Positions 17,905 to 47,441 of a stretch of 64,000 nucleotides of DNA are shown piece after piece. The stretch comes from Streptomyces cadmiisoli. Its GTDB lineage: Bacteria > Actinomycetota > Actinomycetes > Streptomycetales > Streptomycetaceae. Position numbers and translations under genes: made by a program. How positions within the stretch are numbered: position 1 is the first letter of the stretch; every line of letters starts with the position of its first letter. The notes beneath the pieces were generated by a model. The model did not search any database, was not told where the DNA came from, and was given only the letters and a program-made list of their open reading frames with translations. The stretch lies in contig NZ_CP030073.1 in assembly GCF_003261055.1 (NCBI RefSeq), positions 3,720,001 through 3,784,000 of the forward strand. Reading direction: 5' to 3'.

Positions 17905-17916
17905 CTACGCGCGTAG
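17905..17916. promoter_or_regulatory. Nucleoside-regulon operator, site 1
   Basis: The perfect 12-bp palindrome CTACGCGCGTAG overlaps the expected -35 region of the purine nucleoside phosphorylase promoter (-10 TACCCT at 17929-17934). The same word occurs upstream of five other nucleoside-related genes in this window. Confidence 0.8.
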
Positions 17917-17941
17917 GCCGGGACCGGCTACCCTCATCCGC

Positions 17942-18766
17942 GTGAACGCATCTCTTCTTCCGGACGACATCCAGGGCGACCCGTACGCCGCCGCCGACGC
18001 GGCGGCCGCTCGCCTGCGCGAACTGACCGGCGCCGAGTCCCACGACGTCGCCCTCGTGATGGGCTCCGGCTGGGCCCCGGCCGTGGACGCGCTGGGCGAT
18101 GCCGACGCCGAGTTCCAGGTCACCGAGTTGCCCGGGTTCCCGCCGCCCGCCGTCGCGGGCCACGGCGGCAAGGTCCGTTCGTACCGGATGGGTGACAAGC
18201 GCGCCCTGGTCTTCCTCGGCCGTACCCACTACTACGAGGGCCGCGGGGTGGCCGCCGTCGCGCACGGCGTGCGCACCGCGGTGGCCGCCGGCTGCAAGAC
18301 CGTCGTGCTCACCAACGGCTGCGGCGGTCTTCGGGAGGGTATGCGTCCCGGCCAGCCCGTGCTGATCAGCGACCACATCAACCTGACGGCGACGTCCCCG
18401 ATCGTCGGCGCGAACTTCGTCGACCTCACCGACCTGTACTCGCCGCGGCTGCGCGCCCTGTGCAAGGAGATCGACGCGACCCTGGAAGAGGGCGTCTACG
18501 CGCAGTTCCCCGGCCCGCACTACGAGACGCCGGCCGAGATCCGCATGGCCCGTGTGATCGGCGCGGACCTGGTGGGCATGTCGACCGTGCTGGAGGCGAT
18601 CGCCGCCCGCGAGGCCGGCGCCGAGGTGCTGGGCATCTCCCTGGTCACCAACCTGGCGGCCGGCATGACCGGCGAGCCGCTCAACCACGAGGAGGTGCTC
18701 CAGGCCGGCCGGGACTCCGCGGCGCGCATGGGCGCCCTGCTCGGACAGGTGCTGGACCGCCTGTAG
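17942..18766 (+). CDS. Purine nucleoside phosphorylase
   Basis: A 274-residue trimeric-type phosphorylase that splits inosine, guanosine or their deoxy forms with phosphate into base and (deoxy)ribose-1-phosphate. Family motifs are the phosphate loop LVMGSGW, the strand [22 protein letters not shown], the purine-binding region [16 protein letters not shown] with its Glu, and [16 protein letters not shown] 17942 is chosen because TACCCT (17929-17934) ends eight positions before it, giving leaderless translation, and because the operator lies just upstream; reading further back would put promoter and operator inside the gene. The next gene, a phospho-sugar mutase, is 57 bases away and would act on the pentose-1-phosphate formed. 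Confidence 0.93.
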
Positions 18767-18823
18767 GCCGCCGGGGCCGCTCCGGAGCACACCGCAGGAA
18801 CACGACGAGAGGGTTGACCCGAC

Positions 18824-20470
18824 GTGCACGACGATCTCCTCGCACGGGCAAGGGCGTGGCTGGCCGAGGACCCCGACCCGGAGACCCGCGCGGAACTCGC
18901 CGGGCTGATCGACGCCGGGGACGTCACCGAGCTGGCCGAGCGCTTCGGCGGCACGCTCCAGTTCGGCACGGCGGGTCTGCGGGGCGAGCTGGGCGCCGGG
19001 CCGATGCGGATGAACCGCTCCGTGGTCATCCGCGCCGCCGCCGGCCTCGCCGCCCACCTGCGCAAGCAGGGGCACGCCCGGCAGGACGGCGGCAGCGGCC
19101 TGGTCGTCATCGGGTACGACGCCCGGTTCAAGTCGGAGGAGTTCGCCCGCGACACCGCCGCCGTGATGACCGGCGCCGGACTGCGCGCGGCCGTCCTCCC
19201 GCGGCCCCTGCCGACGCCCGTGCTGGCGTTCGCGATCCGGCACCTCGGCGCGGTCGCCGGGGTCGAGGTCACCGCCAGCCACAACCCGCCGCGCGACAAC
19301 GGCTACAAGGTGTACCTCGGCGACGGCTCCCAGATCGTCCCGCCCGCCGACGCGGAGATCGCCGCCGAGATCGACGCCGTACGGTCCCTGGACGACGTGC
19401 CCCGCCCCGCGGACGGCTGGCAGACCCTCGACGACGGCGTCCTGGACGCCTACCTGGCCCGCACGGACGCCGTACTGGCCCCCGGCTCCCCACGCACGGC
19501 CCGGACGGTCTACACGGCGATGCACGGTGTCGGCCGCGACGTCCTCCTCGCCGCCTTCGCCCGCGCGGGCTTCCCCGCGCCGGCCCTGGTCGCCGAACAG
19601 GCCGATCCGGACCCGCGGTTCCCGACCGTCGCCTTCCCCAACCCGGAGGAGCCCGGCGCGATGGACCTGGCCTTCGCGAAGGCCCGTGAGACGAATCCGG
19701 ACCTGGTCATCGCGAACGACCCGGACGCCGACCGCTGCGCCGTGGCCGTCCCGGTCGGCGACGACTGGCGCATGCTGCGCGGCGACGAGGTCGGCGCGCT
19801 GCTCGCCGCGCACCTGGTGGACCGCGGGGCGCGCGGCACGTTCGCGGAGTCGATCGTCTCCTCCTCCCTCCTCGGCCGGATCGCCGAGAAGGCGGGCCTG
19901 CCGTACGAGGAGACCCTCACCGGTTTCAAGTGGATCGCCCGGGTCGACGGCCTGCGCTACGGCTACGAGGAGGCCCTCGGCTACTGCGTGGACCCCGACG
20001 GCGTGCGCGACAAGGACGGCATCACCGCCGCCCTGCTGGTCACTGAGCTGGCCTCACGGCTCAAGGAGGAGGGCCGCACCCTCCTCGACCTGCTCGACGA
20101 CCTGGCCGTCGAGCACGGCCTGCACGCCACCGACCAGCTGTCGGTCCGGGTCGAGGACCTGTCGGTCATCGCCGACGCGATGCGGCGGCTGCGCGAGCGG
20201 CCCCCGGCGCGGCTCGCCGGTCTGCCCGTCACCCGCGCCGACGACCTCACCGAGGGCAGCGACCGGCTGCCGCCCACGGACGGCCTGCGCTACACGCTGG
20301 ACGGCGCACGGGTCGTCGTCCGGCCGAGCGGCACGGAGCCGAAGCTGAAGTGCTACCTGGAGGTCGTGATCCCGGTCGCCGCCCACGCCGACCTCCCCGC
20401 GGCCCACGCCCGCGCGTCGACCCTGCTGACGTCCCTCAAGAGCGACCTGTCCGCGGCGGCCGGCATCTGA
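18824..20470 (+). CDS. Phospho-sugar mutase, probable phosphopentomutase
   Basis: A 548-residue alpha-D-phosphohexomutase-superfamily enzyme with four domains. The opening FGTAGLRGELGAGPMRMN is the form seen in PGM2-type mutases. The phosphoserine loop is TASHNPPRDNGYK, the magnesium loop is DPDADRCAV, the sugar-binding loop is EEALGYCV and the C-terminal phosphate loop RPSGTEPKLK. The GTG start follows GAGAGGG. Many such proteins are named phosphomannomutase, but its place after purine nucleoside phosphorylase, with deoC nearby, favours conversion of ribose- or deoxyribose-1-phosphate to the 5-phosphate. Substrate is inferred from context. Confidence 0.88.
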   Translation: MHDDLLARARAWLAEDPDPETRAELAGLIDAGDVTELAERFGGTLQFGTAGLRGELGAGPMRMNRSVVIRAAAGLAAHLRKQGHARQDGGSGLVVIGYDARFKSEEFARDTAAVMTGAGLRAAVLPRPLPTPVLAFAIRHLGAVAGVEVTASHNPPRDNGYKVYLGDGSQIVPPADAEIAAEIDAVRSLDDVPRPADGWQTLDDGVLDAYLARTDAVLAPGSPRTARTVYTAMHGVGRDVLLAAFARAGFPAPALVAEQADPDPRFPTVAFPNPEEPGAMDLAFAKARETNPDLVIANDPDADRCAVAVPVGDDWRMLRGDEVGALLAAHLVDRGARGTFAESIVSSSLLGRIAEKAGLPYEETLTGFKWIARVDGLRYGYEEALGYCVDPDGVRDKDGITAALLVTELASRLKEEGRTLLDLLDDLAVEHGLHATDQLSVRVEDLSVIADAMRRLRERPPARLAGLPVTRADDLTEGSDRLPPTDGLRYTLDGARVVVRPSGTEPKLKCYLEVVIPVAAHADLPAAHARASTLLTSLKSDLSAAAGI

Positions 20471-20509
20471 CGGCAGGCCCCGGAACGTGAGCCGGGGCGG
20501 GCCCTGCCG
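20471..20509. terminator. Hairpin after the phospho-sugar mutase gene
   Basis: CGGCAGG at 20471-20477 pairs with CCTGCCG at 20503-20509, with an inner CCCCGG/CCGGGG stem. It starts directly after the stop codon. Confidence 0.6.
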
Positions 20510-20531
20510 GGGGCTCGGCGACGATTCCGCG

Positions 20532-20565
20532 CCGCGGGACGATCCCGAAGGGGAACGTCCCGCGG
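20532..20565. terminator. Second strong hairpin downstream of the mutase
   Basis: CCGCGGGACG (20532-20541) pairs perfectly with CGTCCCGCGG (20556-20565); the inner TCCC/GGGGA extends the stem. Probably a back-up terminator between convergent units. Confidence 0.55.
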
Positions 20566-20632
20566 TTCCGCGGGGCGGCTCGGGTCGGAGTGCCGCGGTT
20601 CGCGGGCGGCCGGAGCCGGCGTGCGGCTCGCC

Positions 20633-20830
20633 AGTGCCGCGTCAGGCAAGGTTCGCCGGTCGAGGAGCGGCGTCCGGTGCGTGCTCTCGGCGTGCCGGCC
20701 GTGAGTCCTCGTACTGGACGTACTCGGGCTCTCGGCCGGTGCGGCGGGTGGGGGCACCTCCCACGCCTTTCAGGCAGTGGGGGAGCGTGCCGGGCGTCGC
20801 GACGGGGCGAACGTTGCCTGACGCGGCACT
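20633..20830. repeat. Structured inverted-repeat element, copy B (198 bp)
   Basis: A perfect 17-bp terminal inverted repeat, AGTGCCGCGTCAGGCAA at 20633-20649 and its complement at 20814-20830, flanks a core shared with copy A. The terminal repeats of the two copies differ in sequence but each pairs perfectly with itself. Arms GCCGGCCG/CGGCCGGT show a compensating change against copy A. An extra stretch with a second small hairpin (CTCCCAC...GTGGGGGAG) lies near 20750-20785. The right end overlaps the TAG stop of the minus-strand PH-domain gene, again at CTAG. Confidence 0.8.
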
Positions 20831-21509
20831 AGCCCACCGCCAGCAGCACGGCCAGCAGCACCGCCCCGGCGATCACCGGCACCACCACCTCGTACGCCCA
20901 GCGGACCGTCACCTCGCCCTGCGCCGTGCTCGCCTTCTCCCGGGCCTCCAGCGTCAGCCGGAGGTCGTGGATGATCTGGTCGCTCTCCGCCCGGACGGGC
21001 CCGTCCGTCCCGGAGCCGCCCCCGAAACCGCCGAGGCCCCCCATCCCCTTGGGCCGGCTGACCCTGCCGCTCTGCTCCGCCTCCCACCGGGCGGTCTTGC
21101 GCGCCGCCCGCTTGCGGCCGCGCAGCGAGACGGGCACGGCCCACAGCTGGTACTTCGTGCCGGACTTGGCGACGACCTCGTTGGTGTAGCCGGAGCGCAG
21201 CGAGGCGACCTCGCCCCAGGGCAGCTCGACGACCCGGAACGGGTTGCGCACCCGCAGCCGGTCCTCGCCCGAGAAGACCGCGGGCCGGATCGTGAAGGCG
21301 ACGACCAGCGGCGCCACGACGAGCAGGGTGGCGAGCGCCTGCCAGGGCGTACTGCCCTCGCTGTTCACCATGGCGTCGATGCTGATCCAGCCGGCGAGGG
21401 CGAGCAGCAGGACGCCGGCGACGAGCCCCATGGGTGAGCGGTAGATCCGGTCCTTGGTGGTGGGGCCCGAAGGCTGCGGTGCTGGTGACTGGTGGTCCGG
21501 GGTGGTCAT
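20829..21509 (-). CDS. PH-domain-like membrane protein
   Basis: This 226-residue protein has a soluble start, two transmembrane helices (about 26-45 and 54-73), a bacterial PH-like domain (about 75-140, with RPAVFSGEDRLRVRNPFRVVELPWGEVASL), a charged region and a Gly-rich stretch (about 155-175), and a C-terminal membrane helix (about 203-224). The PH-like fold suggests a scaffold or lipid/protein contact on the cytoplasmic face; the function is unknown. The ATG at 21509 (MTTPDHQS) is preferred over upstream starts because the earlier part is low-complexity Arg/Gly and crosses the promoter. Its stop codon lies at the edge of repeat copy B. Confidence 0.8.
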   Translation of the reverse strand: MTTPDHQSPAPQPSGPTTKDRIYRSPMGLVAGVLLLALAGWISIDAMVNSEGSTPWQALATLLVVAPLVVAFTIRPAVFSGEDRLRVRNPFRVVELPWGEVASLRSGYTNEVVAKSGTKYQLWAVPVSLRGRKRAARKTARWEAEQSGRVSRPKGMGGLGGFGGGSGTDGPVRAESDQIIHDLRLTLEAREKASTAQGEVTVRWAYEVVVPVIAGAVLLAVLLAVG

Positions 21510-21708
21510 GGAGCCGATTCTGCCCGACGTCTCCGAAAGGTCCCCACGCGGTGCCACCCGGCGCGGCCCGCGCACAGCCGCTCCGGCCCCGATCCGCAGC
21601 ACCCGCGCAGCACGGGTCCGCAAAAGCCGCGACACCGCCCTGCCCCCGAACCGCGGGGTGATTCCCCTCGCCCGCCCCACGCGTGAGGGTCCGGGGGGTG
21701 TACAGCCG

Positions 21709-21720
21709 CTACGCGCGTAG
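21709..21720. promoter_or_regulatory. Nucleoside-regulon operator, site 2
   Basis: A perfect CTACGCGCGTAG lies one base upstream of the deoC -10 box TATGCT (21722-21727). A bound regulator there should block RNA polymerase. Confidence 0.8.
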
Positions 21721-21733
21721 ATATGCTCGTCTG

Positions 21734-22687
21734 GTGACCATGCCCACCTCTGCACACACCCTCACGGACGTGGCGGCCTCCGAGAGCACGCTGCGTCGGT
21801 TCCTCCACGGGCTGCCCGGCGTCGACGCGGTCGGCCTGGAGGCGCGTGCCGCCTCGCTCGGCACCCGTTCCATCAAGACCACCGCCAAGGCGTACGCCAT
21901 CGACCTCGCCATCTCGATGGTCGACCTGACGACGCTGGAAGGCGCGGACACCCCCGGCAAGGTCCGGGCCCTCGGCGCCAAGGCGGTCCGTCCCGACCCG
22001 ACCGACCGCTCGACCCCGTCGACGGCCGCGGTCTGCGTCTACCCCGACATGGTGGCCGCCGCGAAGGAGGCCGTCGCCGGATCGTCGGTGAAGGTCGCCT
22101 CCGTCGCCACCGCCTTCCCGGCGGGCCGCGCCCCGATCGCCGTCAAGCTGGCGGACGTGCGCGAGGCGGTCGCGGCCGGCGCCGACGAGATCGACATGGT
22201 CATCGACCGCGGCGCGTTCCTCTCGGGGAACTTCATGAAGGTGTACGAGGAGATCGTCGCCGTGAAGGAGGCCTGCGGGGCGGCCCGCCTCAAGGTCATC
22301 TTCGAGACCGGCGAGCTGTCGACGTACGACAACATCCGGCGGGCGAGCTGGCTCGGCATGCTGGCCGGGGCGGACTTCATCAAGACGTCGACCGGCAAGG
22401 TGGCGGTGAACGCGACCCCGGCGAACACCCTCCTCATGCTGGAGGCGGTGCGCGACTTCCGCGCGCAGACCGGGGTGCAGGTCGGTGTGAAGCCGGCCGG
22501 CGGCATCCGCACCTCCAAGGACGCCGTCAAGTTCCTGGTCCTGGTCAACGAGACCGCCGGCTCGGACTGGCTGGACAACCACTGGTTCCGCTTCGGTGCT
22601 TCCTCGCTCCTGAACGATCTGTTGATGCAGCGTCAGAAGCTGGCCACCGGCCGCTACTCCGGCCCCGACTACGTCACGGTGGACTGA
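21734..22687 (+). CDS. deoC: Deoxyribose-phosphate aldolase
   Basis: A 317-residue class I aldolase that cleaves 2-deoxyribose-5-phosphate to acetaldehyde and glyceraldehyde-3-phosphate. The Schiff-base Lys lies in GADFIKTSTGK; the second conserved Lys is in VGVKPAGGIRT, and ADEIDMVIDRG fits the family. The protein is longer than E. coli DeoC because of an N-terminal helix extension usual in actinobacteria. GTG 21734 is chosen since TATGCT ends seven bases before it (leaderless). Two aldehyde dehydrogenase genes follow after six bases, so the acetaldehyde product can be oxidised by the same operon. Confidence 0.93.
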   Translation: MTMPTSAHTLTDVAASESTLRRFLHGLPGVDAVGLEARAASLGTRSIKTTAKAYAIDLAISMVDLTTLEGADTPGKVRALGAKAVRPDPTDRSTPSTAAVCVYPDMVAAAKEAVAGSSVKVASVATAFPAGRAPIAVKLADVREAVAAGADEIDMVIDRGAFLSGNFMKVYEEIVAVKEACGAARLKVIFETGELSTYDNIRRASWLGMLAGADFIKTSTGKVAVNATPANTLLMLEAVRDFRAQTGVQVGVKPAGGIRTSKDAVKFLVLVNETAGSDWLDNHWFRFGASSLLNDLLMQRQKLATGRYSGPDYVTVD

Positions 22688-22693
22688 GACCCC

Positions 22694-25043: not shown

Positions 25044-25057
25044 CCGCCACCGCAGAC

Positions 25058-25103
25058 CAGAGGGCCGCGCCTCCCCTCCGTCCGGGGGAGACGCGGCCCT
25101 CTG
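25058..25103. terminator. Strong bidirectional terminator after the deoC operon
   Basis: CAGAGGGCCGCG (25058-25069) pairs with CGCGGCCCTCTG (25092-25103), and the inner CTCCCC/GGGGAG continues the stem after one mismatch. It lies between convergent genes. Confidence 0.75.
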
Positions 25104-25114
25104 CCGTACGCGCT

Positions 25115-25498: not shown

Positions 25499-25626
25499 GA
25501 CTGGTGCCACCTTCTGCTGCATAGAGTAAGCGAATCGACACGAAGAGTAGTTGAGGTGTGACACGCGCTTCAAAGCCGACCCGCGGGGTCGTTCAGGAGT
25601 GGTCGGATGCATCAGACTGGTGTCCC

Positions 25627-26262: not shown

Positions 26263-26408
26263 CCCGGACGCCGCGCACACACGCGAAAGCGGGACCGGAC
26301 GGACCCCCCGGCCCTCCAGCCCCGCTTCCGTACCACTCCCCCGTGGTCCCCCCGGACCCCGCTTTCCCCCGTGCTCCCCCCGGTGGGCGCTCCCCCGCGC
26401 CCCCGCCG

Positions 26409-27191
26409 TCAGGCGACAAGCTCCCCGAAGGCGTGCTGCTCGTCACGGCCGAAGCTGAGGACCTCGTCCTCCCGCAGCCTGCGGAGCGACCGCCAGATGC
26501 TGGACTTCACCGTGCCGACACTGATGTCGAGGATCTCCGCGATCTCCGGGTCCGTGCGGCCCTCGTAGTAGCGGAGGACCAGCATGGTGCGCTGGAGCTC
26601 GGGCAGCCGGGCCAGCGCCTGCCACAGGACCGCGCGCAGCTCGGTGCCGCGCATCGCGTCCGTGTCGCCGGCCGTCTCCGGCAGTTCCTCGGTCGGGTAC
26701 TCGTTCAGCTTGCGGCGGCGCCACGCGCTGATGTGCAGGTTGGTCATGGTGCGGCGGAGGTATCCGCCGACCGCCGCCTTGTCACTGATCCGGTCCCACG
26801 CCTTGTACGTCGAGAACAGCGCGCTCTGCAGCAGGTCCTCGGCCTCGAAGCGGTCACCGGTGAGGTGGTAGGCGGTGGCGTACAGGGAGGCGCGGCGTTC
26901 CTGGACGTAGGCGGTGAATGCCGCTTCGGCATCCGCCGTCTCCGTCGGCGCGCAACGCTCCCCCGATTCCTCCCTGTACGCGGCTCCCCCGTGTGTTTCC
27001 CCCGTGAAACCGTCAACCACCGTCATGTAGGGCTGAAGCCCCGGCTGTGCATGCGCGGTGTGCTGACGCCCGGTGCCGCGAGCGCACCCCCGCCCGCTCA
27101 CGGCACCGGACTTCTCGGAACCCCGGTGCGTGTTCACGTCGTGCAGACGCGTGATCACTGCGCTGGTGCTGATGCCGTGCAGCGTGTTCAT
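26409..27191 (-). CDS. sigQ: RNA polymerase sigma factor SigQ
   Basis: A 260-residue ECF-type sigma factor with an 80-residue N-terminal extension. Region 2 (about 90-160: SLYATAYHLTGDRFEAEDLLQ, then RRTMTNLHISAWRRRK) and region 4 (about 190-245: LPELQRTMLVLRYYEGRTD, VGTVKSSIWRSLRRLRED) are intact. It is divergent from afsQ1-afsQ2; in S. coelicolor SigQ opposes the antibiotic-stimulating effect of AfsQ1/Q2 (family knowledge). The ATG at 27191 has a GGGGGG stretch upstream; a second ATG 55 codons later is a possible shorter start. The shared promoter region contains an AfsQ1-type direct repeat. Confidence 0.9.
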   Translation of the reverse strand: MNTLHGISTSAVITRLHDVNTHRGSEKSGAVSGRGCARGTGRQHTAHAQPGLQPYMTVVDGFTGETHGGAAYREESGERCAPTETADAEAAFTAYVQERRASLYATAYHLTGDRFEAEDLLQSALFSTYKAWDRISDKAAVGGYLRRTMTNLHISAWRRRKLNEYPTEELPETAGDTDAMRGTELRAVLWQALARLPELQRTMLVLRYYEGRTDPEIAEILDISVGTVKSSIWRSLRRLREDEVLSFGRDEQHAFGELVA

Positions 27192-27299
27192 CTCGCGCCC
27201 CCCGTCGTGGACTTGCCCGTGTTCTGTCTTGCTCGGTCCTGCTTCCTTGCCCGTGCCGAAAAGCTTGCCGGGGTCACTTCATGGACGTGTCCGCCGACT

Positions 27300-27315
27300 G
27301 TCACAGACCTGTCAC
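27300..27315. promoter_or_regulatory. AfsQ1 box between sigQ and afsQ1
   Basis: GTCAC-n6-GTCAC at 27300-27304 and 27311-27315 matches the reported AfsQ1 direct-repeat consensus GTnAC-n6-GTnAC. It lies 120 bases before afsQ1 and 109 before sigQ, so it could serve either gene. Confidence 0.7.
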
Positions 27316-27434
27316 AGGGGTCGGCTCGTATGTCGTTCCTACGAGACGTACAAACCGGTCACGGAGCAGAGCGGTACGGCTACGCACCTGCCCGAGTGTC
27401 GAAACGCCACCCCACCATGGGCCAGAATGAGCCC

Positions 27435-28112
27435 GTGCCTTCCCTGTTGCTGATCGAGGACGACGACGCCATCCGAACGGCCCTGGAGCTCTCACTGACG
27501 CGCCAGGGACATCGCGTGGCGACCGCTGCCAGCGGAGAGGACGGTCTGAAGCTGCTGCGTGAGCAGCGGCCGGATCTGATCGTGCTGGATGTGATGCTGC
27601 CCGGTATCGACGGGTTCGAGGTGTGCCGGCGCATCCGGCGCACGGACCAGTTGCCGATCATTCTGCTGACCGCGCGCAGCGACGACATCGACGTGGTCGT
27701 CGGCCTGGAGTCCGGAGCCGACGACTATGTCGTCAAACCGGTGCAGGGCCGGGTGCTGGACGCGCGGATCCGGGCGGTGCTGCGCCGCGGTGAGCGGGAG
27801 TCGAACGACGCGGCGACCTTCGGCAGCCTGGTCATCGACCGTGCGGCGATGACCGTGACGAAGAACGGCGAGGACCTCCAGCTGACCCCGACCGAGCTGC
27901 GGCTGCTGCTCGAACTGAGCCGGCGGCCGGGACAGGCGCTGTCGCGGCAGCAGTTGCTGCGTCTGGTGTGGGAGCACGACTACCTGGGCGACTCGCGGCT
28001 CGTGGACGCCTGTGTCCAGCGGCTGCGCGCCAAGGTCGAGGACGTGCCGTCGTCCCCGACACTGATCCGTACCGTGCGGGGTGTGGGCTACCGGCTGGAT
28101 CCGCCTCAGTGA
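27435..28112 (+). CDS. afsQ1: Two-component response regulator AfsQ1
   Basis: The 225-residue OmpR/PhoB-type regulator has a receiver domain (1-115) with acidic pocket EDDD and phosphoacceptor Asp52 in IVLDVMLPG, and a winged-helix DNA-binding domain (about 130-222; SRLVDACVQRLRAKVE). With AfsQ2 it controls antibiotic production and nitrogen-related genes in S. coelicolor, and its own region. The GTG at 27435 lies seven bases past CAGAAT (27423-27428), so translation looks leaderless. It overlaps afsQ2 through GTGA. Confidence 0.95.
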   Translation: MPSLLLIEDDDAIRTALELSLTRQGHRVATAASGEDGLKLLREQRPDLIVLDVMLPGIDGFEVCRRIRRTDQLPIILLTARSDDIDVVVGLESGADDYVVKPVQGRVLDARIRAVLRRGERESNDAATFGSLVIDRAAMTVTKNGEDLQLTPTELRLLLELSRRPGQALSRQQLLRLVWEHDYLGDSRLVDACVQRLRAKVEDVPSSPTLIRTVRGVGYRLDPPQ

Positions 28113-29710
28113 CGAAGGGGCAAGGGGGTCTCCGCGGCTGGGCCGCGGCACGCAAGGGAGTTCTGTCGGCGCTGCGTTTCACCAGCCTGCGGCTGCGGCT
28201 GGTCGTGGTGTTCGGGCTGGTGGCGTTGACCGCGGCGGTGTCCGCGTCCGCCATCGCGTACTGGCTCAACCGTGAGGCCGTGCTCACCCGCACCCAGGAC
28301 GCGGTGCTGCGCGACTTCGAGCAGGAGATGGAGAACCGGGCGGGCGCGCTGCCCGAGCACCCCGGCCAGGACGAGCTCCAGAGCACCGCGGGCCAGATGG
28401 CGAGCAGCAGCCAGCGGTTCAGTGTGCTGCTCGTCGCCGAGGACGCGAACGGGCGCACGGTGTACGGCAGTTCCGGCGGCCTCAACGACGGCTTCGCCCT
28501 GACGGACGTACCGGAGTCGCTGCGTACGGCCGTCGCCGAGGAGCAGCCGCTGACCTCCGGGAACAAGTCGCCGTACCACCTGTACTGGCAGCGGATCGTC
28601 GACGACGGCACCCCGTACCTGGTGGCGGGCACCCGCGTGATCGGCGGCGGTCCGACCGGGTACATGCTCAAGTCGCTGGAGCCGGAGGCCAAGGACCTCA
28701 ACTCGCTGGCCTGGTCGCTGGGCATCGCCACCGGTCTCGCGCTGATCGGTTCCGCGCTGCTCGCGCAGGCCGCCGCGACGACCGTGCTCAAGCCCGTGCA
28801 CCGGCTCGGGGTCGCCGCGCGGCGGCTCGGCGAGGGCCAGCTCGACACCCGGCTGCGGGAATCGGGCACCGACGAACTGGCGGAACTGTCACGGACGTTC
28901 AACCGGACCGCGGAGGCGCTGGAGAAGCGGGTCGCCGACATGGCCGCGCGGGACGAGGCCTCGCGCCGGTTCGTCGCCGACATGAGTCACGAGCTGCGCA
29001 CGCCGCTGACCGCGATCACCGCCGTGACGGAGGTGCTGGAGGAGGAGCTGGACTCCGAGAGCGGCGGCATCGACCCGATGATCGAGCCCGCGGTACGGCT
29101 CGTGGTGAGCGAGACCCGGCGGCTGAACTCCCTCGTGGAGAACCTGATGGAGGTCACCCGCTTCGACGCGGGCACCGCCCGGCTGGTCCTGGACAACGTC
29201 GACGTCGCGGACCAGATCACCGCCTGCATCGACGTACGGGCCTGGCTCGACGCGGTGGAACTGGACGCGGAGCGCGGTATCCACGCCCGCCTCGACCCGC
29301 GCCGACTGGACGTGATCATGGCCAATCTGATCGGCAACGCGCTCAAGCACGGCGGTTCGCCGGTGCGGGTGTCCGTGCGGGAGCACCAGGGCGACCGCGA
29401 CGGGGCCGACGAGGGCAAGGCGGGCGCGGAGGTCGTGATCCAGGTGCGGGATCACGGGCCCGGCATCCCCGAGGACGTCCTGCCGCACGTCTTCGACCGG
29501 TTCTACAAGGCGAGCGCCTCCCGGCCGCGCTCCGAGGGCAGCGGGCTCGGCCTGTCCATCGCCCTGGAGAACGCGCACATCCACGGCGGCGAGATCACCG
29601 CCGCCAACTCCCCGGAGGGCGGCGCGGTGTTCACGCTGCGGCTGCCGCGGGACGCCTCGGCGCTGGCGGCCGAGGAGGAGCGCTCGATGGAGAGGGGGGA
29701 CCTCCGATGA
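28109..29710 (+). CDS. afsQ2: Two-component sensor histidine kinase AfsQ2
   Basis: A 533-residue membrane kinase. Two transmembrane helices (about 25-48 and 198-220) bracket an extracellular sensor domain; a HAMP linker (about 222-275) leads to the dimerisation domain with phosphoacceptor His294 in DMSHELRTPLT, then the ATP-binding domain with N box LIGNALKHGG, G1 DHGPGIPE and G2 GSGLGLSI. It phosphorylates AfsQ1. The GTG overlaps the afsQ1 stop codon (GTGA), and the lipoprotein gene that follows overlaps by ATGA, so the three are translationally coupled. The start is set by this overlap. Confidence 0.94.
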   Translation: MTKGQGGLRGWAAARKGVLSALRFTSLRLRLVVVFGLVALTAAVSASAIAYWLNREAVLTRTQDAVLRDFEQEMENRAGALPEHPGQDELQSTAGQMASSSQRFSVLLVAEDANGRTVYGSSGGLNDGFALTDVPESLRTAVAEEQPLTSGNKSPYHLYWQRIVDDGTPYLVAGTRVIGGGPTGYMLKSLEPEAKDLNSLAWSLGIATGLALIGSALLAQAAATTVLKPVHRLGVAARRLGEGQLDTRLRESGTDELAELSRTFNRTAEALEKRVADMAARDEASRRFVADMSHELRTPLTAITAVTEVLEEELDSESGGIDPMIEPAVRLVVSETRRLNSLVENLMEVTRFDAGTARLVLDNVDVADQITACIDVRAWLDAVELDAERGIHARLDPRRLDVIMANLIGNALKHGGSPVRVSVREHQGDRDGADEGKAGAEVVIQVRDHGPGIPEDVLPHVFDRFYKASASRPRSEGSGLGLSIALENAHIHGGEITAANSPEGGAVFTLRLPRDASALAAEEERSMERGDLR

Positions 29711-31817: not shown

Positions 31818-32981
31818 TCAGGCCTCGTCGGACGCGGAATCGCTGGTCGAAGCGGTCTGCTTGAACAGCCATTCGGACTTCAACTCGGCATAGCCGGGCT
31901 TGATCACGTCATTGATCATGGCCAGTCGTTCATCGAAAGGAATGAATGCTGACTTCATAGCATTGACCGAGAACCACTGCATGTCGTCGAGCGTGTAGCC
32001 GAACGCTCCGACCAGGTGCTCGAATTCCCGGCTCATGCTGGTGTGGGACATCAGCCGGTTGTCGGTGTTGACCGTCGCACGGAAGTGCAGCCGGCGCAGC
32101 AGCCCGATGGGGTGCTCGGCGTAGGAACTGGCCGCGCCGGTCTGGAGGTTGGAACTGGGGCACAGCTCCAGCGGGATGCGCTTGTCCCGGACGTACGCGG
32201 CGAGCCGGCCGAGCTTGACGCTCCCGTCCTCGGCGACCTCGATGTCGTCGATGATGCGCACCCCGTGGCCGAGCCGGTCGGCGCCGCACCACTGGAGGGC
32301 CTGCCAGATGGACGGCAGTCCGAAGGCCTCGCCGGCGTGGATGGTGAAGTGGTTGTTCTCCCGCTTGAGGTACTCGAACGCGTCGAGGTGCCGGGTGGGC
32401 GGGTAGCCGGCCTCGGCGCCCGCGATGTCGAAGCCGACGACGCCCTGGTCGCGGTAGCGGTTGGCGAGTTCCGCGATCTCCAGGGCGCGGGCGGCGTGCC
32501 GCATCGCGGTCAGCAGGGCGCCGACCCGGATCCGGTGGCCGTCGGCCCGCGCGGTCCGCTCCCCCTGCCGGAAGCCCTCGTTGACGGCCTCGACGACCTC
32601 TTCGAGGGTGAGCCCGCCCTCCAGGTGCTGCTCGGGGGCGTAGCGCACCTCGGCGTAGACGACGCCGTCCGCGGCGAGGTCCTCCGCGCACTCGGCGGCG
32701 ACCCGGACCAGGGCCTCGCGGGTCTGCATGACGCCGACGGTGTGGGAGAACGTCTCCAGGTACCGCTCCAGGGAGCCGGAGTCGGCGGCCTCGCGGAACC
32801 ACAGGCCCAGCTTGTCGGGATCGGTCTCGGGCAGGGCCGAGTAGCCGCCGGTGTGGGCGAGTTCGACCACGGTGCCGGGCCGCAGCCCGCCGTCGAGGTG
32901 GTCGTGCAGCAGAACCTTGGGTGCCCGGCGGATCTGGTCCGAGCTCGGGGTGTTCCCCATCCGGTCAGTCTGGCTCGTCAT
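31818..32981 (-). CDS. add: Adenosine deaminase
   Basis: A 387-residue zinc enzyme converting adenosine or deoxyadenosine to (deoxy)inosine, which then feeds the phosphorylase. Zinc ligands are in LHDHLDGG (about 26-33) and TIHAGEAFG, with the catalytic Glu in the latter; GHGVRI and the zinc-binding Asp of [10 protein letters not shown] complete the site (many family members have NTDDP). The ATG at 32981 is preceded by TAAAGT (minus strand, 32993-32988) ending seven bases before it, giving leaderless translation. The shared operator lies four bases upstream of that -10 box. Confidence 0.94.
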
Positions 32982-32997
32982 TTCGGCACTTTAACTC

Positions 32998-33009
32998 CTA
33001 CGCGCGTAG
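32998..33009. promoter_or_regulatory. Nucleoside-regulon operator, site 3
   Basis: A perfect CTACGCGCGTAG immediately upstream of the add -10 box TAAAGT on the minus strand. It lies between add and the divergent hydrolase gene. Confidence 0.8.
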
Positions 33010-38732: not shown

Positions 38733-38768
38733 CGGACGGGACCGGTGGTGGTCCACCGGTCCCGTCCG
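38733..38768. terminator. Bidirectional terminator between AEC permease and deoA
   Basis: A perfect 16-bp stem (38733-38748 with 38753-38768) with a 4-base loop. Confidence 0.8.
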
Positions 38769-38788
38769 CGCGAAGGAGAGGCCGCGGG

Positions 38789-40072
<1,284 letters not shown>

Positions 40073-40101
40073 GGCTGGCTTCCTTCCGGAAAGTGCGAGG
40101 T

Positions 40102-40137
40102 GTACGGCCCCTGGGAACCGGGTCCCAGGGGCCGTAC
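40102..40137 (-). terminator. Hairpin between cdd and deoA
   Basis: A perfect 15-bp stem (40102-40116 with 40123-40137, 6-base loop) begins just after the cdd stop and ends before the deoA ribosome site. It should reduce read-through into deoA or protect the upstream mRNA. Confidence 0.7.
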
Positions 40138-40142
40138 GGGAG

Positions 40143-40544
40143 TTACGAGGAGAGGTGGCCGGGGCCGAAAGCCTGCGGCAGCATCCGCGACAGCGGCAGG
40201 ACGCCCTCCGGGGTCTCCAGCAGCAGGTCCGGGCCGCCGAACTCGTGGAGCAGCTGCCGGCAGCGGCCGCACGGGACGAGGATCTCGCCCCTGCCGTCCA
40301 CACAGGTGAAGTGCGTCAGACGGCCGCCTCCGCTGCGCTGCAGCTCCGAGACCAGCCCGCACTCGGCGCACAGGCCGAGGCCGTAGGAGGCGTTCTCGAC
40401 GTTGCAGCCGGAGACGGTGCGGCCGTCGTCGACCAGGGCGGCGACGCCGACCGGGTAGCCCGAGTAGGGGGCGTACGCGTGGGTCATCGCCTCGCGGGCC
40501 ACCTCGCGCAGCGCCGCCCAGTCGACGTCGGCCGGCGGGGTCAC
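40143..40544 (-). CDS. cdd: Cytidine deaminase
   Basis: A 133-residue homotetramer-type cytidine deaminase, converting cytidine or deoxycytidine to (deoxy)uridine. The zinc site is in SGCNVENASYGLGLCAECG with catalytic Glu and a first Cys, and LVPCGRCRQLL with two Cys. HAYAPYSGYPVG is the substrate-binding start. The GTG overlaps the TGA of the upstream permease gene (GTGA), so translation is coupled to it. Its product feeds the uridine/thymidine phosphorylase gene that follows. Confidence 0.94.
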   Translation of the reverse strand: MTPPADVDWAALREVAREAMTHAYAPYSGYPVGVAALVDDGRTVSGCNVENASYGLGLCAECGLVSELQRSGGGRLTHFTCVDGRGEILVPCGRCRQLLHEFGGPDLLLETPEGVLPLSRMLPQAFGPGHLSS

Positions 40545-41818
40545 TTCCCTTGTCCCTTCCGGTACGGCAGGCCGTCCGCCTTCGGCACCCGCAGCCGTTG
40601 CGCGGAGAGCGCGAGGACGACCAGCGTGATGACGTACGGAGTGGCGGAGACGACCTGGTTGGGCACCTCGTTGGTGCCGGCGTACCAGGCGAACATCAGC
40701 GCGCCGACGACCACGGTGATCACAGCCTGGACGTACTTCTTGCGGATCGCCAGCCAGATCGCGCCGATGATCAGCAGCAGGGCGCCGAGCAGCAGCAGCG
40801 CGTGGACGTTCTCCGAGCCGCCGCGCAGGTTGAGGCTGTCGGTGTAGCCGAACAGGCCGGCGCCGATGGCGAGGCCGCCGGGCATCCAGTTGCCGAAGAT
40901 CATCGCCGCGAGGCCGATGTAACCGCGGCCGCTGACCTGGCCCTCCAGGTAGAACGGGTTGGCCACGATGGACAGGAACGCGCCGCCCAGGCCCGCCAGA
41001 CCACCGGAGATGATCACGGCCAGGTACTTGTACTTGTAGACGTTGACGCCGAGGGACTCGGCGGCGACCGGGTTCTCGCCGCAGGAGCGCAGGCGCAGGC
41101 CGAACGCGGTGCGCCACAGGATCCACCAGGTGGCGGGGACCAGCGCGATGGCGATCAGGGTCAGCCAGGAGACATTGGTGACCAGACCGCCGAGCAGGCC
41201 CGCGATGTCGGAGATCAGGAACCAGCCCTTGTCGTTGAGGTCCCTGAGCCCGTCGGCGAGCCCTGGCACGGTGAAGTGGCCGAGGGAGTCCACCGCCGGG
41301 GACTGCTTGGCCGAGCCGCCCGCGTGGCCCTCGAAGGCGAGGGGCGCGAGGTAGCGGGTGGCGCCGAGGGCGAGGATGTTGATCGCCACACCGGAGACGA
41401 TGTGGTTGACGTTGAAGGTGACCGTCACGAAGGCGTGCAGCAGACCGCCGATCGCGCCGCCGAGGATGCCGACCAGGACACCCGTCCACGGGCCCCACTG
41501 GAATCCGGCCCAGGCACCGAACCAGGTGCCGAGGATCATCATGCCCTCGAGGCCGATGTTGATGACGCCCGCGCGTTCGGCCCACAGACCGCCGAGACCG
41601 GCGAGGCCGATCGGCACGGCGAGCTGGAGCGCGGTGGACATCTGGCTGACGTTGGTGATGCCGTCCGCGCCCGTGATGATGCGGACGAGCGAGGTCAGCG
41701 CCAGGGCTCCGGCGATGACCAGCAGCAGGACGGGCCACGACATCCGGCGGCCGGTCGGCGCCACGGGGCGCAGCGTGGGCTGGTTGACGTCGAGGGCTGA
41801 GGTCTGCGGGGCGGTCAT
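40541..41818 (-). CDS. Nucleoside ABC transporter permease, second subunit
   Basis: A 425-residue inner-membrane permease of the BPD_transp_2 family with about ten helices, similar to NupQ/RnsD-type subunits. The segment AERAGVINIGLEGMMILGTWFGAW is a hallmark. It has an extra N-terminal soluble stretch and a middle insert (about 150-185) outside helices. AAGGAGG lies before the ATG at 41818, which overlaps the stop of the first permease (ATGA). It forms the channel with the other permease for nucleosides delivered by BMP lipoproteins. Confidence 0.9.
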   Translation of the reverse strand: MTAPQTSALDVNQPTLRPVAPTGRRMSWPVLLLVIAGALALTSLVRIITGADGITNVSQMSTALQLAVPIGLAGLGGLWAERAGVINIGLEGMMILGTWFGAWAGFQWGPWTGVLVGILGGAIGGLLHAFVTVTFNVNHIVSGVAINILALGATRYLAPLAFEGHAGGSAKQSPAVDSLGHFTVPGLADGLRDLNDKGWFLISDIAGLLGGLVTNVSWLTLIAIALVPATWWILWRTAFGLRLRSCGENPVAAESLGVNVYKYKYLAVIISGGLAGLGGAFLSIVANPFYLEGQVSGRGYIGLAAMIFGNWMPGGLAIGAGLFGYTDSLNLRGGSENVHALLLLGALLLIIGAIWLAIRKKYVQAVITVVVGALMFAWYAGTNEVPNQVVSATPYVITLVVLALSAQRLRVPKADGLPYRKGQGK

Positions 41819-42935
41819 CGGCCAGCCACCTCCTTCGTGTTGTTGGTGGCGCCGAGGACGTGACCGGCGGCCAGCTCGGCGCCGACCCGGCGCTGCTGGC
41901 GACGCTGGCCCCACTCACGGACGGCCTCGTAGGAGACGACGACCGAGAGGACGATCAGGCCCTGCATGATGACCGCGATCTCCTTGTCGTAGCCGTGGAA
42001 GTCCAGCTCGGGCGAAGCCTTGTCGAGCCAGGCCCACAGCAGGGCGGCGAACGCGATGCCGACGGGGCTGTTCCGGCCGAGCAGCGCGATGCCGATGCCG
42101 AGGAAGCCGATGCCGGTGGGGAAGTTCAGGCTGTACGTGTGGGTGTCGCCGAGCAGGATCGGCAGACCCGCGAGACCGGCGATCGCGCCGGAGAGGAGCA
42201 TGGCGGTCAGCACCATGCGCTTGGGGTCCACACCGCTGGCCGCGGCGGCGGTCTCCGAGGCGCCGGAGGCGCGCAGGTCGAAGCCGAAGCGGGTGCGGTT
42301 GAGGGTGACCCAGTAGCCGATGCCGAGCAGGATCGCGAGGACGACCAGGCCGTAGATCTCGCCGGCCGCGCCCATGTCGATGCCGGGCACCCAGCCGGAC
42401 TCGTGCATCTCGCCGGTGGTGTTGTTGTTGCCGACCTTGACGCCGAAGACGTTCGGCAGCCACAGGTAGGCGATGACGGAGGTGGCGATCGCGTTGAGCA
42501 TGATCGTCGCGACCACCTCGCTGACACCGCGGGTGACCTTCAGGACACCGGCGATACCGGACCAGAAGGCGCCGGTGAGCAGCGCGGTCAGGATCAGCAG
42601 CGGGACCTGGACCACGGCCGGCAGGTTCATGTGGGCGCCGACGACGGCGGCCATCATGGCGGCGAGCTGGTACTGCCCGTCGACACCGATGTTGAACAGG
42701 TTCATCCGGAAGCCGATGGCCACCGCGAGCGCCGCGACGTAGTACAGCGAGGCCTGGTTGATGATCAGGACCTGGATGTCGGAGAAACCGAGCTGTTCGA
42801 ACATCAGGGCGAACGGCTCGACCGGGTTCTTGCCGGAGGCGACCAGCACGATCGCGCTCAGCACGAAGGCCACGGCGAGCGCGATGACCGGTCCGGCCAC
42901 CGCGAGGAGCAGGCGCTCCTTGTCGAACTTCTTCA

Positions 42936-42936
<1 letters not shown>
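41815..42936 (-). CDS. Nucleoside ABC transporter permease, first subunit
   Basis: A 373-residue BPD_transp_2 permease with about nine helices, of the NupP/RnsC kind: AIGFRMNLFNIGVDGQYQLAAMMA, KVTRGVSEVVATIMLNAIA and PTGIGFLGIGIALLGRNSPVG are typical of the family. It pairs with the second permease and the ATPase. The ATG shares one base with the ATPase stop (TGATG), and the 3' end overlaps the next permease by four bases, so stoichiometry is probably kept by coupled translation. Confidence 0.9.
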
Positions 42937-44570
<1,634 letters not shown>

Positions 44571-44598
44571 GGCGCACTCTCCTGGGGACGGGGGTCGT

Positions 44599-44610
44599 CT
44601 ACGCGCGTAG
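44599..44610. promoter_or_regulatory. Nucleoside-regulon operator, site 4
   Basis: A perfect CTACGCGCGTAG 17 bases upstream of the ribosome site of the ATPase gene (minus strand), in the gap between the BMP lipoprotein terminator and the importer operon. Confidence 0.8.
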
Positions 44611-44647
44611 CGCCCCTACGGCATGCGAAGGGGCGACGCACCGTGAC

Positions 44648-44684
44648 AACGGGGTACAGGGAGGCACCCTCCCCGTACCCCGTT
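44648..44684. terminator. Terminator after the first BMP lipoprotein gene
   Basis: AACGGGGTAC (44648-44657) pairs with GTACCCCGTT (44675-44684), and an inner GGGAG/CTCCC continues the stem. It separates the binding-protein transcript from the importer operon, which has its own operator. Confidence 0.75.
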
Positions 44685-44731
44685 GAGCGGACGTAACCCC
44701 GCGGTTACTGACTGCTCGGAGTCCTGCTGTT

Positions 44732-45784
44732 TCAGCTGCTCTTGACCTTGATCTCGCCGCTGATGATCTTTTCCTTGGCCGTCTCGATGGCTTCCTGGAG
44801 TTCCGCGTCGTCCGCGAACTTCGGGTTGGAGTCCGCGAGTCCGACCTCACCGGTCTTCAGATCGCCCCTGACGATACCGGTCTCGGGCTTGCCGTCCTCG
44901 ACCGACTTCGCAAGGTTGTACACCGCCTTGGCCACGTCCTTGGTGGCCGAGGTGAGGATGGATTCCTTGTACTTGGCGAGAGCTTCCTGCGCGTACTGGT
45001 CGGAGTCCACACCGATCGCCCACACCTTGTTCGCGGCGGCGGCCTCGATGACGCCCTGACCGGACAGACCGGCCGCCGCGTACACGATGTCGGCCTTCTT
45101 CTCGATCTGGCCCTCGGCGGCGGTCTTGCCCTTGTCGGGGCTGGAGAAGCCGCCCTCCTCCGCGGTCTGCGTCAGGTACTGCGACAGGACCTTGACCTTG
45201 GGGTCGGTGTCCTTGACGCCCTGCTCGAAGCCCGCCTGGAACTTGTGGATCAGCGGGATGTCCACGCCGCCGACGAAGCCGACGACGTCGGACTTCGTGC
45301 TCTTGGCGGCGGCGACACCGGCGAGGTAGGAGGCCTGCTCCTCGGAGAAGACCAGGTCCGCCACGTTGTCGGCCTCGACCTGGGAGTCGTCGACGATGCC
45401 GAAGGTGGTGTCGGGGTACTTCGCCGCGACCTCCTTCACGGCCGGCGCGTACGCGTAGCCGACGCCGACGACGGGGTTGTAGCCCTGCTTCGCCAGCGAC
45501 GACAGACGCTGGATCTTGTCGGCGTCGGTCTCACCCTCGGTGGGCTCGATGTCGGCCGTGTCGTAGCCGAACTCCTTCTCCGCCTGCTCCAGGCCCGCGT
45601 ACGCGGCGTCGTTGAAGGACTGGTCGCCCTTGCCGCCGATGTCGTAGGCGATGGCGAGACCCTTGTCGCCCTTCGACTCCGAGGACGAACTGCTTTCGGT
45701 CGAGGTGCCGCCACAGGCGGACAGAGCGAGGGCGAGGGACGCGGTCGCTGCGCCTGCGACCGCTATGCGGGAAACCCGGCGCAT
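44732..45784 (-). CDS. BMP-family nucleoside-binding lipoprotein 1
   Basis: A 350-residue substrate-binding lipoprotein. The lipobox LSAC places the lipid on Cys24. The BMP/PnrA fold starts at GLAIAYDIGGKGDQSFNDAAY, whose Asp/Asn residues bind the nucleoside, and includes EEQASYLAGVAAA, GFVGGVDIPLIHKFQAGF and AIGVDSDQY. It captures nucleosides for the ABC importer encoded next to it. GGAG lies eight bases before the ATG. It is a close paralogue of the next gene, equal in length, and each has its own operator and terminator. Confidence 0.92.
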   Translation of the reverse strand: MRRVSRIAVAGAATASLALALSACGGTSTESSSSSESKGDKGLAIAYDIGGKGDQSFNDAAYAGLEQAEKEFGYDTADIEPTEGETDADKIQRLSSLAKQGYNPVVGVGYAYAPAVKEVAAKYPDTTFGIVDDSQVEADNVADLVFSEEQASYLAGVAAAKSTKSDVVGFVGGVDIPLIHKFQAGFEQGVKDTDPKVKVLSQYLTQTAEEGGFSSPDKGKTAAEGQIEKKADIVYAAAGLSGQGVIEAAAANKVWAIGVDSDQYAQEALAKYKESILTSATKDVAKAVYNLAKSVEDGKPETGIVRGDLKTGEVGLADSNPKFADDAELQEAIETAKEKIISGEIKVKSS

Positions 45785-45847
45785 GTGTGGTGCTCCTGTC
45801 GTACAAGCGCCGCACGGTTCGGCTTCGGCGCTGGCTTCGCCGCAGAT

Positions 45848-45859
45848 TAACGCGCGTAG
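45848..45859. promoter_or_regulatory. Nucleoside-regulon operator, site 5 (variant)
   Basis: TAACGCGCGTAG keeps the core ACGCGCGT and one perfect half-site of the palindrome. It lies 63 bases upstream of the first BMP lipoprotein start. Confidence 0.7.
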
Positions 45860-45984
45860 ACCTGCCTGAAAACCCCTTCTGTCCACCTTGTTATCCGCCC
45901 GTGGCCAATGTCTCCTCACACCAGGTCACAGCCTTGCCGACCGCAAAGACGGAGTGGCGCTGCGTGACACGGGACCGCCCGACG

Positions 45985-46022
45985 CGACGCGGGCGGGCGC
46001 CTGAGGGCGCCCGCCCGCGTCG
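45985..46022. terminator. Terminator after the second BMP lipoprotein gene
   Basis: A 17-bp G+C-rich perfect stem (45985-46001 with 46006-46022) and a TGAG loop, 40 bases past the stop codon on the minus strand. Confidence 0.8.
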
Positions 46023-46061
46023 ACCCCGAGACGGGCCGGACCGTTCAGTGGGAACGGCAGA

Positions 46062-47114
46062 TCACTCGGTGTCGACCTTGATGGTCCCGGCGATGATCTC
46101 TTCCTTGGCCTTGTTCACCTCGTCCTGGAGACCGGCGATCTCCGCGAACTTCGGGTTGCTCTCGGCCAGGCCGACGCCGTTGACCTTCAGGTCGAAGACC
46201 TGGGTGCCGGTGAGCGGCTTGCCGTCCTCGACGGACTTGGACAGGGCGTACACCGCTCCGCCGACGTCCTTGAGGGCGGAGGTGAGGATGTAGTCCTTGT
46301 ACCCCGCGAGGGCTTCCTGCTGGTACTGGTCGGAGTCGACGCCGATCGCCCAGACCTTGGCCTTGGCGGCGGCCTCGATGACGCCCTGACCGGACAGACC
46401 GGCCGCCTGGTAGACGACGTCGGCCTTCTTCTCGATCTGGCCCTCGGCGGCGGCCTTGCCCTTGTCGGGGCTGGAGAAGCCGCCCTCCTCCGCGGTCTGC
46501 GTCAGGTACTGCGAGACGACCTTGACCTTGCCGTCGCTGGTGTCCTCGACACCCTGCTTGTAGCCGGCCTCGAACTTGTGGATCAGCGGGATGTCCACAC
46601 CGCCGATGAAGCCCACGGTGTTCGACTTCGTGGCCTTGGCGGCGGCGACACCGGCGAGGTAGGAGGCCTGCTCCTCGGCGAAGACCAGGGAGGCCACGTT
46701 GCCGCCCTCGACGACGGAGTCGACGATGCCGAAGGTGGTCTTCGGGTACTTCTTGGCCACGGCCTCCATCGCGGGGCCGTAGGCGAAGCCGACGCCGATC
46801 ACCGGGTTGTAGCCCTGCTTGGCCAGCGAGGCCAGCCGCTGCTCCTTGTCGGCGTCCGTCTCGCCCTCGGTGGGCTCGATGTCGGCGGTCTTGTAGCCGA
46901 ACTCGCCCTCGGCCTTCTCCAGACCGGCGTACGCCGCGTCGTTGAAGGACTGGTCGCCCTTGCCGCCGATGTCGTAGGCGATGGCGAGGCCCAGGTCCTC
47001 CTTGGGCTTCGTCTCGTTGCCACTGTCAGTGCTGGTACCACCGCAGGCCGTGGCGGCGAGCGCGACCGACGCGACCCCCACCGCGACGCGGGTCAGTTTG
47101 GATATCTGACGCAT
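46062..47114 (-). CDS. BMP-family nucleoside-binding lipoprotein 2
   Basis: A 350-residue paralogue of the preceding protein with the same layout: lipobox ATAC (Cys24), GLAIAYDIGGKGDQSFNDAAY, EEQASYLAGVAAA, GFIGGVDIPLIHKFEAGY and AIGVDSDQY. Differences cluster in the C-terminal lobe and in the YAPAVKEV/YGPAMEAV region, so ligand preference may differ. The ATG at 47114 is chosen by the signal peptide. A 115-base block near 46421-46535 is almost identical in DNA to the matching block of its paralogue. Its own operator lies 55 bases upstream. Confidence 0.92.
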   Translation of the reverse strand: MRQISKLTRVAVGVASVALAATACGGTSTDSGNETKPKEDLGLAIAYDIGGKGDQSFNDAAYAGLEKAEGEFGYKTADIEPTEGETDADKEQRLASLAKQGYNPVIGVGFAYGPAMEAVAKKYPKTTFGIVDSVVEGGNVASLVFAEEQASYLAGVAAAKATKSNTVGFIGGVDIPLIHKFEAGYKQGVEDTSDGKVKVVSQYLTQTAEEGGFSSPDKGKAAAEGQIEKKADVVYQAAGLSGQGVIEAAAKAKVWAIGVDSDQYQQEALAGYKDYILTSALKDVGGAVYALSKSVEDGKPLTGTQVFDLKVNGVGLAESNPKFAEIAGLQDEVNKAKEEIIAGTIKVDTE

Positions 47115-47441
47115 CTGAAGTTCCCCATTCTCCAAAGCCCCGCAGTGGGTGCTCGGTTCGGCGCACATTAACGCGCGTAGACACTCCTGGGAACGGGGTT
47201 CTGCGTGGCCGTTATCCATTCGTGCCGATGGCCGGTAACGTCCCTGTGAACCATCGCCGCGAACGGTGCGCGCCTGGGGCGATCCGGGCGCCGTGAAGCG
47301 CATGGGTGCTCACCACGCGCACCAGGCTGCCGCCGGTGCGGACGGGCCGCAACCCGGGGTCTCCGGGGCGCAGCGGCCCGCCGCTCGCCGGGTCCCGTCC
47401 GGTCGATGCGCGCCGCCGCCCGCGCGGCGGCCTCGCGGGCC
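47115..47441. other. Gap between BMP lipoprotein 2 and the M20 amidohydrolase gene
   Basis: This 327-base gap holds the leader and operator site 6 of the lipoprotein gene in its left part. The right part (47240-47440) is G+C-rich with short inverted repeats near the amidohydrolase stop and no convincing frame. Confidence 0.5.
47169..47180. promoter_or_regulatory. Nucleoside-regulon operator, site 6 (variant)
   Basis: TAACGCGCGTAG, identical to site 5 and preceded by the same ATT, 55 bases upstream of the second BMP lipoprotein start. Confidence 0.7.

Follow-up and report, generated by a model that had tools for sequence, protein, structure and literature searches.

A 12-bp palindrome as the probable operator for genus-wide repression of nucleic-acid scavenging in Streptomyces

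Six nucleoside-related promoters within one stretch of a Streptomyces genome carry nearly the same short palindrome, which raises the question of whether a single operator joins these genes, which protein would read it and how far such a regulon would extend. The stretch analysed, hereafter the window, comprises 64 kb (C1:3720001-3784000); the genome measures 10.24 Mb and consists of two contigs. The original prediction had placed perfect copies of CTACGCGCGTAG at four of these promoters and CTACGCGCGTTA at the other two, and all six coordinates were correct (Table 1). The four perfect copies compared with none in 100 dinucleotide-preserving shuffles, as did the two copies of CTACGCGCGTTA, which is the gene-strand reading at both BMP genes. 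Among the 36 distinct perfect 12-bp palindromes of the window, CTACGCGCGTAG was the most repeated, with four copies against two for the next. Matches with up to two mismatches numbered six against a shuffle mean of 4.07, and 23 of 100 shuffles reached six; this count was not significant, and weight was therefore placed on the exact copies. No further copy within two mismatches was present in the window, in agreement with the earlier claim that no non-nucleoside promoter there carries one. Pfam assigned the site-bearing genes to PNP_UDP_1, DeoC, A_deaminase, ABC_tran and, twice, Bmp.

Table 1. Putative operator sites, promoter boxes and genes in the window (window positions)
Feature	Position	Strand	Remarks
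Putative operator CTACGCGCGTAG	17905..17916	.	PNP promoter, over the -35 region; same place in 14/14 traced genomes
Putative operator CTACGCGCGTAG	21709..21720	.	Against the -10 of deoC; 14/14 traced genomes
Putative operator CTACGCGCGTAG	32998..33009	.	Just upstream of the add -10; 12/14 traced genomes
Putative operator CTACGCGCGTAG	44599..44610	.	Just downstream of a -10-like box, ABC operon; 11/14 traced genomes
Putative operator variant CTACGCGCGTTA	45848..45859	-	End overlaps -10-like TAATCT
Putative operator variant CTACGCGCGTTA	47169..47180	-	BMP-type lipoprotein promoter
PNP -10-like box TACCCT	17929-17934	+	GTG start 17942; read by eye, start site not mapped
deoC -10-like box TATGCT	21722-21727	+	GTG start 21734; read by eye, start site not mapped
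add -10-like box TAAAGT	32993-32988	-	ATG start 32981; read by eye, start site not mapped
DeoR-family regulator	14697..15665	-	HTH_DeoR + DeoRC; judged an unlikely reader
Purine nucleoside phosphorylase (PNP)	17942..18766	+	PNP_UDP_1 on longer frame 17843-18766; start codon inferred
deoC, deoxyribose-phosphate aldolase	21734..22687	+	DeoC on 21683-22687; start codon inferred
add, adenosine deaminase	31818..32981	-	A_deaminase
Pyrimidine/thymidine phosphorylase, ABC operon	38789..40303	-	Glycos_transf_3 + PYNP_C; reading frame, gene shorter
Permease, ABC operon	40541..41914	-	BPD_transp_2; reading frame, gene shorter
Permease, ABC operon	41815..43425	-	BPD_transp_2; reading frame, gene shorter
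ABC importer ATPase	42936..44474	-	ABC_tran; true 5' end further upstream
BMP-type substrate-binding lipoprotein	44732..45784	-	Bmp on 44732-45919; start inferred
BMP-type substrate-binding lipoprotein	46062..47114	-	Bmp on 46062-47303; start inferred

A scan of the whole 10.24-Mb genome, as the original prediction had proposed, found no perfect copy at an unrelated gene. All five copies lay at nucleoside genes; the one outside the window overlaps the opening codons of add2, which encodes a second adenosine deaminase (Pfam-confirmed). Copies with at most one mismatch did not exceed the reversed control in four genomes (21 versus 25, 24 versus 31, 42 versus 42 and 14 versus 14), and a weak site was therefore counted only if it recurred at the same gene in other species; the one-mismatch sites read were 16/16 in G000, 10/10 in G168, 15/20 in G008 and 9/37 in G074. 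The pattern CTACGCGCGKNR occurred at 37 distinct places in the genome, 21 of which read CTACGCGCGTNR, the other 16 having G at position 10. Nucleic-acid genes accounted for 13 of the 21 CTACGCGCGTNR places: the six window sites, add2, two 5'-nucleotidases, a secreted RNase (PF00545), a secreted GmrSD_C protein and two places before an Exo_endo_phos_3 protein. The remaining eight comprised six inside called reading frames, one between convergent genes and one before an M23 peptidase. One of the 16 places with G at position 10 was recognised as a nucleic-acid gene, the NCS2 permease. CTACGCGCGKNR was also rarer than its reversed control (16+26 versus 38+33 in G000; 17+14 versus 30+28 in G168), a scarcity that could reflect avoidance of stray operators or codon effects.

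Perfect copies were present in all 31 of the 31 genus genomes sampled, at 3-6 per genome, with a total of 121 versus 23 for the reversed control. An order-level sample gave at least two copies in 107/107 genus genomes and one copy in 3 of 12 others. At class level, 28 of 197 genomes matched, namely 20 genus genomes and 8 of the 177 others, each outsider having a single copy except G095, which had three. Over both samples, a copy was found in 11 of 185 non-genus genomes; neither sample contained a further genus of the family, such as Kitasatospora. A tblastn search at 1e-5 gave no match to a regulon protein at 13 non-genus loci (all ten class-sample places and three from the order sample). Two of the non-genus copies lie inside IMPDH (L164 by Pfam, L165 by sequence), and several have no called gene beside the site.

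Every perfect copy was traced in fourteen genus genomes, and 55 of the 59 lay at PNP (14), deoC (14), add (12), the ABC operon (11), add2 (3) and purS (1). The remaining four were all in G009, three at other genes and one not covered. Targets without a perfect site were the ABC operon in G096 and both add and the ABC operon in G159. These loci were fetched through the pattern and contain it by construction; what is informative is the identity of the genes behind it. A HAD phosphatase gene carried a perfect site in G022 and G105 (L104, L105). The element has two properties that we took to mark an operator: one and the same element stands at functionally linked promoters above chance, and it is kept at the orthologous promoters of other species. 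Across the Streptomyces genomes sampled, the 12-bp element is nearly unchanged.

The secreted RNase belongs to PF00545, a secreted ribonuclease family that includes RNase Sa. Its relatives were sought by protein in named genomes; of 113 loci, the best 80 were retained (79 labelled Streptomyces and one labelled Actinobacteria bacterium). Having been found by protein and not by pattern, this set is the least biased test. Exactly CTACGCGCGTCA was present in all 80 of these best 80 of 113 loci, 22 bp (71 loci) or 23 bp (9 loci) before the start, whereas 100 permuted palindromes matched a mean of 0.91 and a maximum of 31 of the same 80 loci with up to two mismatches allowed. The promoter around the element was conserved too, including TTGACA upstream, and what the set shows is therefore a promoter retained as a whole, within which the element does not vary, not conservation of the site alone.

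Recurring variant sites widened the gene set. One-mismatch forms were found in 4/4 genomes both at a 5'-nucleotidase (CTACGCGCGTTG) and at the NCS2 permease (CTACGCGCGGAG), and CTATGCGCGTAG stood at deoA in three genomes. Three genomes had CTAC(C or T)CGCGTAG before purS and a fourth had a perfect site there; Pfam and NCBIfam both identified the product as PurS. A second 5'-nucleotidase and two nuclease-like genes each had their own site in both G000 and G168. A carbon-nitrogen hydrolase gene was preceded by CTACGGGCGTAG or CTACGTGCGTAG in five genomes and by a two-mismatch form in a sixth. The name beta-ureidopropionase was dropped for this gene; its best NCBIfam model, N-carbamoylputrescine amidase, scored below the cut-off, so that a part in pyrimidine-base breakdown is not established.

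Some sites fit the nucleic-acid theme less well. (A/T)TACGCGCGTAG lies 80 bp before an M23 peptidase in three genomes (L009, L149, L159), three (L006, L156, L167) have an operator-like site 266-291 bp ahead of an OppC-type peptide permease gene, and a stray perfect copy in G009 (L099) is flanked by the genes for a peptide-binding protein and another OppC-type permease. The M23 peptidase and peptide permease sites reflect either a wider regulon or chance. Matches at DUF397-like/ATPase loci (L155, L160, L172; names by eye) fall where two convergent genes end, next to a hairpin-like sequence, and were rejected as operators. One-mismatch matches in DnaA of several genomes (L007, L139, L157, L169; Pfam for L139) were likewise rejected; they lie inside coding sequence and are kept through protein conservation, so conservation alone is no proof of a site. 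One shared operator at the nucleoside promoters, as originally predicted, finds good support in the five of five perfect genome copies at nucleoside genes and in cross-genome conservation. Its restriction to nucleoside genes did not hold, given the sites at secreted nucleases, 5'-nucleotidases, the NCS2 permease, purS and a few genes with no part in nucleic-acid metabolism.

The position of the sites bears on how they might act. At PNP, deoC and add, the site touches a putative leaderless promoter, as had been proposed, with a -10-like box (read by eye) and the start 6-7 nt on. At the RNase gene it lies in the spacer/-10 region, and at add2 and the GmrSD_C gene it covers the first codons (boxes by eye). 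Overall, the sites are spread between about -96 and +11 with respect to the start, and from the -35 region to past the start codon. This scatter around the core promoter suits a polymerase-blocking repressor better than a fixed-distance activator.

We consider it likely that CTACGCGCGTAG, together with its variant CTACGCGCGTNR, is the operator through which one repressor, common to Streptomyces, controls nucleic-acid scavenging. What was observed directly is where the sites lie, how well they are conserved and which genes follow them; from these sequence features we infer one protein reading all sites, repression and an inducer. The reader would be a dimeric repressor, most likely encoded away from the window cluster. 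Bound on or beside the core promoter, it would block RNA polymerase, and a metabolite of the pathway (a nucleoside, base or pentose phosphate) would release it. The repressor would shut the genes through which RNA and DNA become sources of carbon, nitrogen and bases. The proposed targets at the extracellular end are the secreted RNase, two secreted nucleases and two 5'-nucleotidases, and those for uptake and breakdown are the nucleoside-binding lipoproteins, the ABC importer, two adenosine deaminases, the nucleoside phosphorylases, deoC, the NCS2 permease and probably purS.

An element this constant might instead belong to the promoter itself, perhaps as the -10 box read by an alternative sigma factor. 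Its asymmetric variants mostly point with the gene and are fixed, CTACGCGCGTCA at the 80 RNase loci (best 80 of 113) and CTACGCGCGTTA at 26/26 BMP-type sites found, although the latter were fetched by pattern and BMP promoters without the site would be missed. However, the distance to the start varies over the whole range given above (about -96 to +11), independent -10-like boxes stand beside the element at PNP, deoC and add, two oppositely oriented copies precede the Exo_endo_phos_3 nuclease gene, and the commonest form is the perfect palindrome; we regard a promoter part as very improbable. The fixed variants could also mean at least two related regulators with a common core, one for the palindrome of nucleoside catabolism and one for the CTACGCGCGTCA type of the secreted nucleases, and each class does keep its own ending across genomes. 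This division seems unlikely to us: the first ten bases are common to both classes, the functions join into one route, and the ending of the BMP site overlaps a -10-like box and is thus explained otherwise than by a second regulator.

The DeoR-type gene at 14697 had been put forward as a candidate; its product would bind the palindrome and leave it in the presence of deoxyribose-5-phosphate or a comparable sugar phosphate. It is the sole classical one-component regulator recognised near PNP and deoC, belongs by name to the right family as known from E. coli, is present in 36 of 37 genus genomes (the one missing it is 79% complete) and has an identical 40-residue HTH stretch in 48/48 genus loci. 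Nevertheless, none of these 48 loci has a site within two mismatches in the 300 bp upstream of the gene, which accords with the earlier remark that the gene lacks a site of its own. In other genera, 17 loci encode relatives with 49-71% identity and a similar recognition helix; at none of them was there an operator within one mismatch or a match to PNP, deoC, add or Bmp. A two-domain ABC ATPase adjoins the relative in 8 of these 17 loci and lies within 2 kb in two more, and in the two loci scanned the ABC ATPases, permease and binding protein best matched monosaccharide transporters, below cut-offs. GATC was enriched upstream of the non-genus relatives (63 versus 12.9 expected, 48 of them in the eight ABC-adjoining loci) and, to a lesser degree, in the genus loci (72 versus 39.1). 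The operators of RhaR, a DeoR-family protein, are imperfect direct repeats with a 10-11 bp period in the accessible part of PMC3870299; the element here is a compact 12-bp palindrome. Across the 48 genus and 17 other loci, the DeoR-type gene neither carries the operator nor keeps it where the operon moves. With its relatives elsewhere adjoining monosaccharide-type ABC genes, this candidate is disfavoured; that it is the repressor appears improbable, and we think that it regulates something else.

The DeoR loci showed two further features. The GATC-rich DNA upstream of those DeoR relatives that adjoin monosaccharide-type ABC genes in other actinobacterial genera (L216-L223) provides a candidate DeoR motif. 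The region upstream of the DeoR-type gene and its first codons (window 15600-15860; 20 orthologous loci, L114-L133) were unusually conserved, at many third positions too, and contain no operator; this region may hold the protein's own site.

Other regulator genes near the sites were considered. A GntR gene whose promoter region contains CTACGCGCGTAA (L135, G168) was rejected, the gene being present in 2 of 12 genomes and its second locus, L175, having no site within two mismatches. Both GntR loci contain an add-like frame, so the GntR gene may be a target and not the master regulator; in L135, CTACGCGCGTAA lies between an MFS transporter gene and the GntR gene, and the add-like frame belongs to the same locus. 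An 83-residue XRE protein near the carbon-nitrogen hydrolase, present in 12/12 genomes, had a site within two mismatches in 4 of 12 loci, three of them within one, and was set aside as a weak lead. The XRE loci (L176-L187) usually adjoin an M24-type peptidase gene (Pfam for L178 only). Inside the cluster, at window positions 26409-29710, a sigma factor gene (-) and genes for a response regulator and a histidine kinase (+) show a SigQ-AfsQ1-AfsQ2 layout. The AfsQ1 site consists of GTnAC repeats and differs from the palindrome described here. Judged by position and by the available text of PMC9739842, these genes are presumably SigQ/AfsQ1/AfsQ2, a system that is associated there with high-glutamate conditions and GlnR cross-regulation. 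The factor reading the operator is probably encoded away from its targets.

Nucleoside regulons are known from E. coli, where they are governed by DeoR and CytR. The proposed regulon resembles these in having one operator class for nucleoside uptake, phosphorylases, deaminase and deoC. In contrast to them, it has a different operator, includes secreted nucleases and 5'-nucleotidases, and probably has an unlinked regulator; the linked DeoR-type protein does not fit. CytR inducers are treated in the accessible part of PMC4052901, which also covers the LacI-family proteins UriR, AdeR, HpxR and PurR as local or global regulators of nucleoside and purine genes. As far as that text goes, their sites are, like ours (CTACGC/GCGTAG), even palindromes with a central CG, but they span 16-22 nt, whereas the core here is 12 bp. 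Flanks beyond this core were weak in 15 hand-copied sites, some of them chosen through the pattern. No LacI-type gene, linked or preceded by a site, was recognised among the site neighbours read. NupR of Bacillus thuringiensis (GntR/HutC family) is, in the summary available, likewise a regulator of nucleoside transport, in another phylum.

The 12-mer itself appears in the portions of literature retrieved as an unrelated crystal duplex (5MVK), reused for docking, and TACGCGCGTA and CTACGCGCG gave incidental matches only in the accessible Streptomyces literature. Searching by topic, with subscription journals and RegPrecise outside the search, we found no such regulon described, and the literature searched held no description of joint control of secreted nucleases and nucleoside uptake in Streptomyces. 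A nucleoside regulon is of a known kind; what looks new here is the inclusion of secreted nucleases, the orphan regulator and the genus-wide extent.

As they develop, Streptomyces reuse material of their dying mycelium. More tentatively, and with somewhat less than even expectation, we suggest that one genus-wide, unlinked master repressor might control the entire path from secreted RNase/DNase-like enzymes via 5'-nucleotidase and nucleoside import to nucleoside breakdown and also take in purine synthesis, a peptide importer and a cell-wall-type M23 peptidase, as a circuit for recycling dead mycelium. The analysis proposes a control site for the secreted ribonucleases of the PF00545 family. 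A fixed 12-bp operator could also serve to fish out the regulator, to flag missing steps in genomes and possibly as a promoter element that responds to nucleosides.
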